This document shows positions 8,169 through 15,258 of a DNA stretch of 64,000 nucleotides, in pieces; within the stretch, counting starts at the first letter, position 1; every line of letters starts with the position of its first letter. Under the pieces are notes generated by a model, which was given only the letters and a program-made list of their open reading frames with translations, was not told the DNA's origin and ran no database searches. Position numbers and translations under genes: made by a program. This stretch comes from Fimbriimonadaceae bacterium. GTDB lineage: Bacteria; Armatimonadota; Fimbriimonadia; Fimbriimonadales; Fimbriimonadaceae. The stretch is from NCBI GenBank assembly GCA_023957775.1, contig JAMLGR010000007.1:1-64000 (forward strand), in the 5' to 3' direction.

Positions 8169-8194
8169 GAAACGGCCTCCGACTCCCGCCACCG

Positions 8195-8358
8195 TCTCCC
8201 GACTCCCGACTCCCGACTCCCGATTCCCGATTCCCGTCTCCCGACTCCCGATTCCCGATTCCCGTCTCCCGACTCCCGATTCCCGATTCCCGTCTCCCGA
8301 CTCCCGATTCCCGATTCCCGTCTCCCGATTCCCGATTCCCGTCTCCCGTCTCCCGTCC
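8195..8358. repeat. Heptamer array B with 28-bp higher-order repeat
   Basis: About 23 units of CCCG[AT][CT]T, C-rich on the plus strand. Three exact 28-bp blocks (8236-8263, 8264-8291, 8292-8319) each hold one GTCTCCC, one GACTCCC and two GATTCCC. The array ends GTCCCC, touching the sdhA stop codon. The stretch 8098-8359 holds the leader, this array and no gene. Confidence 0.97.
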
Positions 8359-8359
8359 C

Positions 8360-10261
<1,902 letters not shown>

Positions 10262-11169: not shown

Positions 11170-11958
11170 ATGATTCGATCGCTCACCACCGCTGGGACAG
11201 GCATGATTGCCCAGCAAACCAACCTGGACACCATCGCCAACAACCTGGCCAACGTCAACACCACTGCCTACAAGCAGCAACGGGCCGAGTTCCAGGACAT
11301 GATGTACCAGACCCTCGCCGCGCCCGGCGCGCCCACCGGGGCGAACTCCAGCCAGCCGGTGGGACTCCAGATCGGCCTCGGCTCGATGTTCTCCGCGAGC
11401 GCCACGAACTTCGACCAAGGCTCCCTGCAGAGCACGGGCAACCCCTACGACATCGGCATCAGCGGGGAGGGCTTCTTCCAAGTCCAGATGCCGGACGGCA
11501 CGACGGCCTACACGCGAGACGGCTCCTTCAAGACCGACGCCAACGGGCTGCTCGTCACGAGCGAAGGGTACGCCGTGGAGCCGAACATCACGGTTCCGGC
11601 CGGTGTCACCAACTTCACGGTTTCGCCCGGCGGCATCGTCTCCGTCACCGCGCCCGGGCAGAACGAGCCTCAGGAGCTCGGCCAGATCACGCTCGCAAAG
11701 TTCGTGAACCCCGCGGGCCTGCAGCGGCTGGGTCAGAACCTCTACGCGCAGACGGGGGCGAGCGGCGACCCCCAGGTCGTCAACCCCGGCGAAGAGGGTT
11801 CGGGGCAGTTGATGGGCGGCGTCCTGGAGGGTTCGAACGTGCAGATCGTCGAGGAGATGGTCCGGATGATCCTCGCCCAGCGGGCCTACGAGATCAACTC
11901 GAAGGCCATCCAGACCGCCGACGACATGCTCCAGGTCCTCAACAGCCTCAAGAGGTAA
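11170..11958 (+). CDS. flgG: Flagellar distal rod protein FlgG
   Basis: Distal rod protein, 262 residues, the usual length. Signature MIRSLTTAGTGMIAQQTNLD with NNLANVNTTAYKQQ at the N-terminus; the FlgG-type core GEGFFQVQMPDGTTAYTRDG; and the C-terminal helix SNVQIVEEMVRMILAQRAYE, which forms the coiled core of the axial structures. AGGAG lies upstream. The gap from flgF is 97 nt with no promoter I can support. Its core domain is copied at the start of the next gene. Confidence 0.95.
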   Translation: MIRSLTTAGTGMIAQQTNLDTIANNLANVNTTAYKQQRAEFQDMMYQTLAAPGAPTGANSSQPVGLQIGLGSMFSASATNFDQGSLQSTGNPYDIGISGEGFFQVQMPDGTTAYTRDGSFKTDANGLLVTSEGYAVEPNITVPAGVTNFTVSPGGIVSVTAPGQNEPQELGQITLAKFVNPAGLQRLGQNLYAQTGASGDPQVVNPGEEGSGQLMGGVLEGSNVQIVEEMVRMILAQRAYEINSKAIQTADDMLQVLNSLKR

Positions 11959-11961
11959 CTC

Positions 11962-13125
11962 ATGACGCTTCTCGCTCTCTTGCCAGCCCTGATCCTCGGC
12001 GCCGCGCACGTGGACGTGCGCGTCGATGGGGACGGCTACCTCCGCTTCGTGCGCGACGGCCGCGTCGCCTACGCCAAGCAAGCCGTGCTCGAAGCGCGCG
12101 ACGGCAAGCTGTGCCACGTGTCGGGCCCCGCGATCCTGCCCACGATTCGAGTGCCCGAAGGCGCCGAGGCGATCTCGGTCGATCTCGAGGGCCGCGTGAG
12201 CTGCACCGCCGCCGGGCGGACCAGTGAAGTCGGCCGACTGGTGCTCGCGTTGTTCGAGGGCGGCACGGCGATGCGCGAAGTGGACGGGCTGCTCGTCTCG
12301 CCCGACCGTCCCCACGTGGGCAACCCCGGCGAAGGGACGTGCGGCGTGATCCGCACGGATGGAGCCGCGGCGACGACCACGACGGCGGCCCCGCAGCGGA
12401 CCGCGACGCCCGCCCCTGCGTACTCGGGCAAGGGTGCCACGATCGTCGTGCGGCCGCAAACCGAAGTCTCGGGCGGTGCGATTCTGCTCGGCGACATCGC
12501 GGACATCCAGGCCGCGCCCGAGCTCCTCGACTCGCTCCGACAGGTCGTCCTTGGCGACACGCCTCCGATGGGCGTGCCGCGGATCCTCGATCGCGACCGG
12601 GTACTGACCCGTCTCCGCGCCGCGAAGATCGAGACGGCGGACCTCCTCCTCACGGTGCCCGAGAAGGCCGAGGTGCGGCGGCGTTCGGCGAAGGTCACCA
12701 ACGCGGAGTTCATCGACGCCGCGGCCCTTTACGCGAGACAGCAGTTGAGCTCCGAAGTGGCGCTCGAATCCAAGGACGAGTATCCCGAGATGGCCGTGCC
12801 CGAAGGCAAGCTCGAGCTCCGGGGCACGTCGATGACGCAGTACGGCGCGACGATCAGCGTCGTGGTGGCGGCCGTCGTGGACGGCAAGCCCGTGCGCTCG
12901 CGCACGGTTCGGTTCACGGCGAACCTCGCCGAAGCGGGGGTGCGCCAGGGTTCGGCGGTGAAGGTGCTTTTGAAGAGCGGGGGCGCGGTGGTCGAAGTTA
13001 CCGGGACCGCGCGCAAGACCGCTTTGGTGGGACAAAGCGTGGAGGTCGAGGTGAAGCTCGACCAGCGCACGACGCACGTCGGAGTCGTGACGGCTCCGGG
13101 CGTGGTGGAGGTGAAGCTTTCATGA
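11962..13125 (+). CDS. flgA: FlgA with an N-terminal FlgG-like domain
   Basis: P-ring assembly chaperone FlgA fused to an extra domain; 387 residues against about 220 for E. coli FlgA. After a short signal peptide (MTLLALLPALILGAA), residues about 17-135 align by eye with the FlgG core encoded just upstream: DGDGYLRF for GEGFFQV, ILPTIRVPEGAEAISV for VEPNITVPAGVTNFTV, then VGRLVLALF for LGQITLAKF and GNPGEG for NPGEEG. A Thr/Ala-rich linker (about 133-152) leads to the SAF/FlgA domain (about 155-387; GGAILLGDIADI, GQSVEVEV near the end). It begins 4 nt after flgG and overlaps flgH. Whether the FlgG-like part packs on the rod is unknown. Confidence 0.85.
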   Translation: MTLLALLPALILGAAHVDVRVDGDGYLRFVRDGRVAYAKQAVLEARDGKLCHVSGPAILPTIRVPEGAEAISVDLEGRVSCTAAGRTSEVGRLVLALFEGGTAMREVDGLLVSPDRPHVGNPGEGTCGVIRTDGAAATTTTAAPQRTATPAPAYSGKGATIVVRPQTEVSGGAILLGDIADIQAAPELLDSLRQVVLGDTPPMGVPRILDRDRVLTRLRAAKIETADLLLTVPEKAEVRRRSAKVTNAEFIDAAALYARQQLSSEVALESKDEYPEMAVPEGKLELRGTSMTQYGATISVVVAAVVDGKPVRSRTVRFTANLAEAGVRQGSAVKVLLKSGGAVVEVTGTARKTALVGQSVEVEVKLDQRTTHVGVVTAPGVVEVKLS

Positions 13126-13727
13126 AGACGTTGATGCTGGGCTTGGCGCTGGGCTGCGCGGGATGGAGCGCGGCGCAGGGCTGGACCGGCGGAGTGGACG
13201 ACCAAAACCCGGGCTCGCTTTGGAATCGATCGAGCCGCAACTCGTTCATGGACCGCACGGCCAAGCAGGAGGGCGACCTCCTCACCATTCTCATCCGCGA
13301 AGTCTCTAGCTCGAGCTTCGCCGCACAGACGACGACCAGCAAGTCGGACTCCAACACGATCACCAAGGCCCTCGGGCCCCTCATCCAGTCGCTGATCCCA
13401 GCGGCGTCGACGAGCGGATCGGGGAGTTCGGCCGGCAAGGGCTCGACTTCGCAGACCGGAAGCTTCACGGCGCGCATGACCGCCGTGGTGAAGCAGGTGA
13501 TGCCCAACGGGAACCTCGTGATCGAGGGCACGCGCTGGGTGCATATCAACAAGGACACGCAGGTGTTTACACTGACCGGCATCGTGCGCCGAGACGACGT
13601 GCGCAGCGACAACACGATCTTCAGCGAGCAGATCGCCGAGGCGGAGATCAAAGCCACGGGATCGGGCGCGATCTCGGACCGGCAGCGCCGCGGCATTCTC
13701 ACCCGCCTCTTGGACTGGCTTTTCTGA
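13122..13727 (+). CDS. flgH: Flagellar L-ring protein FlgH
   Basis: L-ring protein, 201 residues, forming the outer-membrane bushing of the basal body. Family motifs: GSLWNRSSRNSFMDRTAKQEGDLLTILI in pieces, SFTARMTAVVKQVMPNGNL, VIEGTR and GIVRRDDVRSDNTI with an SEQIAEAEI strand. FlgH is normally a lipoprotein; here the only Cys of the signal region is residue 12 (ALGC, a poor lipobox), and a signal peptidase I site after SAAQG looks as likely. The ATG overlaps the flgA stop (ATGA). Confidence 0.93.
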   Translation: MKTLMLGLALGCAGWSAAQGWTGGVDDQNPGSLWNRSSRNSFMDRTAKQEGDLLTILIREVSSSSFAAQTTTSKSDSNTITKALGPLIQSLIPAASTSGSGSSAGKGSTSQTGSFTARMTAVVKQVMPNGNLVIEGTRWVHINKDTQVFTLTGIVRRDDVRSDNTIFSEQIAEAEIKATGSGAISDRQRRGILTRLLDWLF

Positions 13728-14920
13728 TGGTGCAACCGATGAAGAACTCGATGGTGTTACTCGTTTTGGCCGCGCTGGTCGCTTCGGCGGCCGGCCAGGC
13801 GGTCTCGAAAGAGCCCCCCGCGCAGGACCCGGGCGCCGCCCAGCGCGCGGCGATCCAGAACGCCGAGCAGATGGGCATCGAAGTGCGCATCAAAGACATC
13901 GCCCGATTCCGCGGCGTGCGTTCGAACCAGCTCTTCGGCTTCGGCATCGTCGTGGGCCTCGCAGGCAACGGCGACACGAAGAAGACCCCGTTCACGGCGA
14001 CCCTGATCGCCAACGCGCTCAAGGACGCGGGCACGACCTCGGACCCGAGCACGTTCGGGCTCAAGAACGTCGCCGTCGTCTCGGTGACCGCCGAGCTGCC
14101 TCCGTTCGCCATGCCCGGCAACCGGATCCCGGTCACCGTGCAGTCGATCGGCGACGCGAAGACGCTGCAGGGCGGCTCGCTGCTCCCCGCTCCCCTCTAT
14201 CCGGCGGGCAACAAGGAGACGGCTTACGCCGTGGCGTTCGGCGAACTGAGCATCGGCGGCTTTTCCGCCGAAGGGGGCGGAAGCTCGGTCTCGAAGAACC
14301 ACCCCACGGTCGGCATCATCCCCGACGGCGGGTTCGTCGAGGCCAGCGTGCCCACGAAGACCGTGTTCGCGGACGGCTCGATGTACCTCGAGCTGAACGA
14401 CGCCGACTTCACCACGGCCGCACGGCTCGCCGAGAAGTTGCGCGAGAACCTCCCGCAGTACCAGGCGTTCGCGATCGACGGCGGGTCGATCCGACTCACG
14501 CTGCCCGACGGCGTCAGCCCCGTGCGCGCCATGGCGGAGATCGAGGGACAGAAGTTCTTCGCCGACACCGTGGCCGTCATCGTGATCAACGAGCGCACCG
14601 GCACGATCGTGGTCGGCGGGAACGTGCGCATCGGGCCGGCGATGGTCGCCAAGGGGAGCTTGAACGTGCGGATCGATCGCGAGACGATCGTCAACCAGCC
14701 CAACACGCCGTTCACGAAGGGCCAGACCGTCGTGACGAACCAGACGACGGTCAATGCCGGCGAGGACACGGCCCAAGTGGCGCTGATTCCGCCGTCGACC
14801 ACCGTCGGGGACCTCGCGCGGCTGTTCCAGACGCTGAAGGTGAGCCCCACGGACGTCATCGCCATCCTCGAAGCCCTCCAGGCGCAAGGCGCCCTGAAGG
14901 CGAGGATCAAGGTGCAGTGA
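13727..14920 (+). CDS. flgI: Flagellar P-ring protein FlgI
   Basis: Periplasmic P-ring subunit, 397 residues with a signal peptide (VLLVLAALVASAAG). Family motifs are clear: VRIKDIARFRGVRSNQLFGF, GIVVGLAGNGD, KNVAVVSVTAELPPFA, GNRIPVTVQSIGDAKTLQGG, and the C-terminal VGDLARLFQTLKVSPTDVIAILEALQ. The start overlaps the flgH stop (TGATG); an internal Met four codons on could also serve. The presence of both FlgH and FlgI indicates an outer membrane. Confidence 0.96.
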   Translation: MVQPMKNSMVLLVLAALVASAAGQAVSKEPPAQDPGAAQRAAIQNAEQMGIEVRIKDIARFRGVRSNQLFGFGIVVGLAGNGDTKKTPFTATLIANALKDAGTTSDPSTFGLKNVAVVSVTAELPPFAMPGNRIPVTVQSIGDAKTLQGGSLLPAPLYPAGNKETAYAVAFGELSIGGFSAEGGGSSVSKNHPTVGIIPDGGFVEASVPTKTVFADGSMYLELNDADFTTAARLAEKLRENLPQYQAFAIDGGSIRLTLPDGVSPVRAMAEIEGQKFFADTVAVIVINERTGTIVVGGNVRIGPAMVAKGSLNVRIDRETIVNQPNTPFTKGQTVVTNQTTVNAGEDTAQVALIPPSTTVGDLARLFQTLKVSPTDVIAILEALQAQGALKARIKVQ

Positions 14921-15258
14921 TGCGGCTCGACGCGATGCTCCAGGTCGGCGAGGCGGTCCACATGGCCGCCCCCGAGTTCGCGAAGCTCAAGCGCGCCACG
15001 CAGCAGATCGAGGCGATGTTCTTCAAGGACATGCTGGCCACGATGGGTGCGGGCAAGGCGGACTCGAGCGGCGGGGGGTTCGGCGCCGACATCTACAAGG
15101 ACATGTTCAACCAATCGCTTTCAGAGACGCTGTCGCAGCGCGGCTCCCTCGGCATCGGGCAGATGATCTACCGGCCGATGGGCAAGGCCCTGCTGGGACA
15201 GCAACTGATGAAACTCCATTTGAGCGGCGGCGCGGAGCGCATCGACCGCAAGGAATAA
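14920..15258 (+). CDS. flgJ: FlgJ-like rod-binding protein
   Basis: Protein of 112 residues equal to the N-terminal rod-binding half of FlgJ (QQIEAMFFKDMLATM, then MFNQSLSETLSQRGSLGIGQMI). The muramidase half found in gamma-proteobacterial FlgJ is absent, as in many phyla, so peptidoglycan opening needs another enzyme. The ATG overlaps the flgI stop (TGATG); a GTG one codon earlier is possible but less likely. Confidence 0.85.
   Translation: MRLDAMLQVGEAVHMAAPEFAKLKRATQQIEAMFFKDMLATMGAGKADSSGGGFGADIYKDMFNQSLSETLSQRGSLGIGQMIYRPMGKALLGQQLMKLHLSGGAERIDRKE

Follow-up and report, generated by a model that had tools for sequence, protein, structure and literature searches.

An FlgG-type domain at the N-terminus of the P-ring chaperone FlgA in Fimbriimonadaceae

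Why should the chaperone of the flagellar P ring, the bushing in the peptidoglycan, carry a domain of the rod, the drive shaft? The question is raised by a gene in the window, by which we mean the whole 64,000-nucleotide stretch of Fimbriimonadaceae DNA (order Fimbriimonadales, phylum Armatimonadota) analysed here. Flagellar genes in the window follow the order flgF-flgG-flgA-flgH-flgI-(rod-binding FlgJ)-flgN-flgK. Two questions have been stated to be open (PMC4895218, PMC8298488): how FlgI finds its way to the rod, and what restricts ring formation to that site. The relevant features of the locus are as follows.

11170..11958, + strand: flgG (262 aa), coding for the distal rod protein; its TIGR02488 match exceeds the cut-off (E 2e-107)
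11962-13125, + strand: fused flgA open reading frame, 387 aa, with an ATG start 3 bp past the flgG stop
12007..12360, + strand: FlgG-type surface domain (FlgA residues about 16-133); rod helices and L-stretch absent
11962..12006, + strand: putative Sec-type signal peptide, FlgA residues 1 to about 15 (hydrophobic N-terminus)
12361..12429, + strand: flexible linker rich in Thr, Pro and Ala, residues 134-156 (pLDDT <50 at 135-150; its length varies in the alignment of relatives)
12430..13122, + strand: FlgA part, residues about 157-387, consisting of an N-terminal (D0/D1-like) region and a C-terminal D3, without D2
13122..13727, + strand: flgH, L-ring protein (PF02107, E 2.6e-50), its start overlapping the flgA stop
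13727..14920, + strand: flgI, P-ring protein and FlgA client (PF02119, E 4e-106), with an N-terminal arm

The FlgJ-like gene (14917-15258, + strand, 113 aa) encodes a rod-binding domain only, the muramidase domain being absent. Elsewhere in the window, a tandem array with a 7-base period occupies positions 8179-8366; its higher unit of 28 bases (TCCCGATTCCCGTCTCCCGACTCCCGAT) is present in 5.7 copies, and it lies just downstream of a succinate dehydrogenase/fumarate reductase flavoprotein gene (8360-10255, minus strand).

The first-pass annotation had proposed that the N-terminal region of this FlgA aligns with the central domain of FlgG and that the rod helices are missing from the copy. Both proposals hold. 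BLASTP aligns FlgA residues 18-128 with residues 94-212 of the window FlgG at 30% identity and 46% positives over 119 columns (E 1e-10, the value for a single comparison). The profile search suggested at the time gave a clear answer: FlgA residues 1-143 alone match the TIGR02488 FlgG profile over positions 90-184 of 259 at 4.8e-11, Pfam LlgE_F_G_D1 at 2.5e-6, above the Pfam cut-off, and solved FlgG at 4.3e-7. With a profile built from 25 relatives, the E-value is 3e-14 for solved FlgG and 1.3e-7 for the FlgA structure 3tee, and the family members themselves are matched by the FlgG profile in 21 of 25 cases and by LlgE_F_G_D1 in 19. In the AlphaFold model the N-terminal domain and the FlgA part are both confident, with a break (pLDDT <50) at residues 135-150; block-mean pLDDT is 81-93 across residues 21-130 and 75 in the block 11-20. 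A Foldseek search against the PDB ranks FlgG chains first (8wki, 7bin, 7cbm; E 2e-7) and superimposes the FlgG fragment 6jf2 with a TM score of 0.72 and an rmsd of 1.8; Salmonella FlgA (3vjp/3tee) appears lower in the list. The Flg_bb_rod and Flg_bbr_C helices, which hmmscan finds in the window FlgG and FlgF, are absent from the fused protein.

The domain shares with FlgG (6jf2, 7cbm, 8wki) the surface domain fold, at about 26-30% identity. Unlike FlgG, which leaves the cell by type III export, the fused copy carries a signal peptide, which we called by eye from the sequence and whose end is approximate. The hydrophobic N-terminus is retained in nearly all relatives aligned. As the signal peptide is of the Sec type, the fused domain would go out via Sec and not via the flagellar type III apparatus.

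Could the N-terminal part nevertheless be an ordinary FlgA N-domain, or its resemblance to FlgG a matter of chance? FlgA of Thermotoga maritima (D0-D3) likewise has an extra N-terminal region, D0, ahead of D1 (PMC4895218). However, the usual FlgA N-terminal region of the window protein stands separately, past the linker, and it is this region that we equate with Thermotoga D0, the FlgG domain preceding it; the equivalence is drawn from length and from alignment to FlgA of Atribacterota and Armatimonadota, not from the Thermotoga sequence itself. Fold and profile matches go to FlgG, and the tree described below agrees, so that the N-terminus neither fails the FlgG profiles nor folds as a normal FlgA N-domain. 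This explanation has been refuted and retains only a minimal probability. That flgG and flgA were joined artificially, in assembly or in gene calling, is less credible still, and can be dismissed for practical purposes: the two genes do adjoin in most bacteria examined, but a complete flgG lies upstream of the fused gene, and independent assemblies have yielded about 70 different fused genes, none of them interrupted by a stop.

The remainder of the protein had been described as a normal FlgA, which proved wrong. The window protein matches TIGR03170 (1.1e-6) and PF13144 (1.4e-4) below the curated cut-offs of both profiles, and the matches are partial, PF13144 starting at position 49 of 122 and TIGR03170 at position 62 of 137. 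In the relatives, the C-terminal ChapFlgA/D3 region is matched by TIGR03170 in 20 of 25 and by PF13144 in 18 of 25. In the three Fimbriimonadales FlgA proteins scanned (that of the window, L111 of family f2 and L114 of family f5), the PF13144 match begins no earlier than position 49-64 and PF08666 (SAF) was not found; in the FlgA proteins of Atribacterota, Negativicutes and other Armatimonadota, the match begins at position 2 or 3 and the PF08666 SAF domain is present. Aligned with FlgA of other Armatimonadota and other phyla, members of all five families of Fimbriimonadales, f1 to f5, have a single clean gap, about 65 aa long. The SAF/β-clip domain D2 is accordingly missing from FlgA of all Fimbriimonadales examined. 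In Salmonella FlgA, D2 has been proposed to target peptidoglycan, and D3 binds FlgI (PMC4895218).

Compared with Salmonella FlgA (3tee, 3vjp), the window protein has the same Sec signal, C-terminal D3 fold and neighbouring flagellar rod and ring genes. The Salmonella protein is built as D1-D2-D3 with a SAF/β-clip D2 and no FlgG domain, whereas in the window protein D2 is deleted and an FlgG domain and linker are added. We class it as a divergent FlgA, since its signal peptide, its location with flgH and flgI in the gene order, and the rest of the protein all fit. A gap of the same size, about 65 aa, is seen in FlgA of a genome from a separate Armatimonadota family (G112, locus L119, family f17); the losses of SAF there and in Fimbriimonadales are apparently independent events. 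The FlgA of another genome (L130, G240) is shorter still.

The fusion is a feature of the family and no local accident. It is found in 68 of the 69 Fimbriimonadaceae (f1) genomes with a scorable FlgA, the exception being G035, in five of the six genomes of f5, where G046 is without it, and in the single genome of f3. In nine further f1 genomes there was no match; these genomes probably lack flagella or, in two cases, are less complete. Two of the loci, L032 and L038, belong to Uphvl-Ar1 and Uphvl-Ar2, which have been placed in Fimbriimonadaceae (PMC5629041). The fusion is absent from f2 (14 genomes with an FlgA match) and f4 (one genome), and no fused match was seen among the other Armatimonadota families surveyed. 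Nor does it occur among the 58 FlgA genes, each next to flgG, that we took from other phyla (Atribacterota, Bacillota/Negativicutes, Synergistota, Calditrichota, Fibrobacterota, Geobacter and others), a sample consisting of the flgG neighbours of the best FlgG hits only. Wherever we checked, the fused flgA sits directly behind flgG. An flgG adjoining flgA is the common order in the bacteria examined, so the raw material for such a fusion is available. In G035 (L027/L125) and G046 (L114) the FlgG domain is gone from FlgA, while flgG, flgA and flgI are retained and FlgA still begins with a signal-peptide-like stretch.

Where did the domain come from? We built a tree from 102 surface domains (129 columns), in which the 45 fused domains form a single clade with an SH-aLRT value of 100 and a long stem. 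This clade is nested in FlgG, close to Fimbriimonadaceae FlgG and apart from FlgF. The source family of the domain, as read from the tree, is that of the flgG gene (11170..11958); an origin from FlgF is ruled out by the same tree. One ancient origin inside FlgG is indicated, with an attachment point that is imprecise at 129 columns. The earlier idea of a partial flgG duplication fused to flgA was therefore correct as to FlgG, but the event is ancient and family-wide, not recent. In a tree of the FlgA part, f1 and f5 form one group (96) in which G046 and G035 are nested as cases of loss, and f3 lies close to the base. The position of f3 implies either an older gain followed by losses in f2 and f4, or a transfer into f3.

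The domain has been maintained by purifying selection, comparable to that on the FlgA part, in close pairs. For five pairs of low divergence, omega in the fused domain (with that of the FlgA part in brackets) is 0.09 (0.12) for L024/L025, 0.07 (0.10) for L002/L131, 0.02 (0.11) for L161/L162, 0.04 (0.03) for L140/L141 and 0 (0.04) for L147/L148. A sixth close pair, L007/L132, has zero changes in the fused domain. In more distant pairs, omega is saturated or higher (up to 0.38).

To see what has been kept, we compared 71 fused domains with 152 FlgG domains column by column (FlgG numbering). Turns and core are retained: G99, G101, Tyr or Phe at 102 and 114, G155 and G171. The D117-G118 of FlgG (TRDGSF) is lost, as are the motifs N180-P181-x-G183-L184...N190 (NPxGLxxxGxN) and S198-G199. 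Among the gains, position 98 is acidic in 90% of the domains, position 104 is Arg in 93%, position 172 is Arg in 77% (basic in 83%) and position 200 is basic in 80%; Pro at 138 is invariant. In the window protein, Asp21, Arg28 and Arg92 belong to this newly conserved set. Acids at positions 117, 123 and 200 are lost, and the median net charge is +1, compared with -6 in FlgG of the same clade. The acids of the Salmonella rod that face FlgI are D109, D154 and E203 (PMC8298488). In the fused domains, position 109 is acidic in 61% and position 154 in 70%, the latter compared with 31% in the clade's own FlgG; position 203 aligns unreliably, the pairwise alignment of the window protein placing E124 there. 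The fused copy thus differs from FlgG in lacking rod helices, L-stretch, TRDGSF and NPxGL, and in its charge. With its rod-assembly motifs lost and its charge changed, it is a repurposed module that cannot be an ordinary rod subunit.

On the side of the client, the lysines K63 and K95 of FlgI (Salmonella numbering) act on the negative rod surface (PMC8298488). Alignment to solved FlgI shows their equivalents to be present in the window and in most clade members. In the window FlgI (13727-14920, + strand), the signal peptide is followed by an additional N-terminal arm, about 25-50 aa long, whose end is charged and probably helical (...AIQNAEQMGIEVRIKD). The AlphaFold model of this FlgI is poor (mean pLDDT 64) and only hints at helicity in the arm. 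Nearly all Fimbriimonadaceae examined have the arm, which is missing from f2, from f4 and from the majority of other bacteria. Coevolution of the arm with the fusion was considered, but is weakened by most f5 genomes and the f3 genome, which carry the fusion with a short FlgI spacer at most, and also by G035, which has retained the arm although it has lost the domain.

Taking these data together, we think it fairly probable that the ring chaperone of this SAF-less lineage uses a captured piece of the rod, either to find the rod or to show FlgI a false one. The former is our preferred reading, if a tentative one: the FlgG module may dock on FlgG of the distal rod and so deliver FlgI to the site of the P ring. 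In the following scheme, the binding partner and the delivery role are inferred. The signal peptide would take FlgA into the periplasm, where its C-terminal D3 would hold FlgI as it does in Salmonella. The FlgG-derived module, N-terminal and on a flexible tether, would provide a second contact at the place where FlgI meets FlgG. Its docking site would most likely be on FlgG in the distal rod while the latter grows, and docking would bring the FlgA-FlgI complex to the site of P ring formation. The known steps come from Salmonella, where FlgA D3 binds FlgI, the rod contacts FlgI, and FlgI assembles on the FlgG rod (PMC4895218, PMC8298488).

We prefer docking because the loss of the negative surface and the gain of basic residues, Arg at 104, 172 and 200 among them, suit the module to a negative rod; at +1 rather than -6, it should not be repelled. 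A further reason is that FlgG domains pack against one another in the rod. Several observations count against docking. FlgA of f2 and f4 has neither SAF nor FlgG domain, yet flgA and flgI are kept in these families, so that the module is an addition and not an obligatory replacement. G035 and G046 have lost the domain and kept flgG, flgA and flgI. Finally, the acids largely retained at the FlgI-facing positions 109 and 154 would suit binding to FlgI equally well.

These acids would also suit a role as a rod mimic, in which the FlgG domain would cover the rod-facing surface of FlgI and stop a premature ring until FlgG of the rod displaces it. Clade FlgI mostly retains the equivalents of K63 and K95, which act on the negative rod surface, position 154 is acidic more often than in the clade's own FlgG, and Fimbriimonadaceae FlgI has its new N-terminal arm. 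Against this, the net charge has gone from about -6 to +1, with acids 117, 123 and 200 lost and Arg gained, which weakens a simple electrostatic mimic; the Asp/Glu-Gly pairs at 109 and 154 double as structural turns, the alignment at 203 is unreliable, and the arm does not track the fusion across families. We consider mimicry rather unlikely, and it owes its standing to the persistence of the acids at 109 and 154. A purely structural role would mean that the domain serves to stabilise, dimerise or tether FlgA, or to bind peptidoglycan, and that its descent from FlgG is a mere coincidence. Such a role would agree with the loss of the FlgG assembly motifs, the new set of conserved residues and the dispensability of the domain in G035 and G046. 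It is harder to reconcile with a source gene that encodes the very protein encircled by FlgI, and with family-wide conservation under purifying selection, and we regard it as distinctly improbable.

The first-pass annotation knew of no described system with this architecture, and we likewise found no description of an FlgA with an FlgG domain in the openly licensed literature, which is no proof of its absence. It is a case of a domain of a structural subunit captured by the assembly factor of a neighbouring part of the machine. With an FlgG-domain FlgA throughout the family, natural losses in G035 and G046 and a loss of SAF across the order, the question of P-ring targeting becomes testable, both as to which parts of FlgA are required for placement and as to which surface, of FlgG or of FlgI, is recognised. 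The fused FlgA of Fimbriimonadaceae is a natural test case for how the P ring is placed around the rod.
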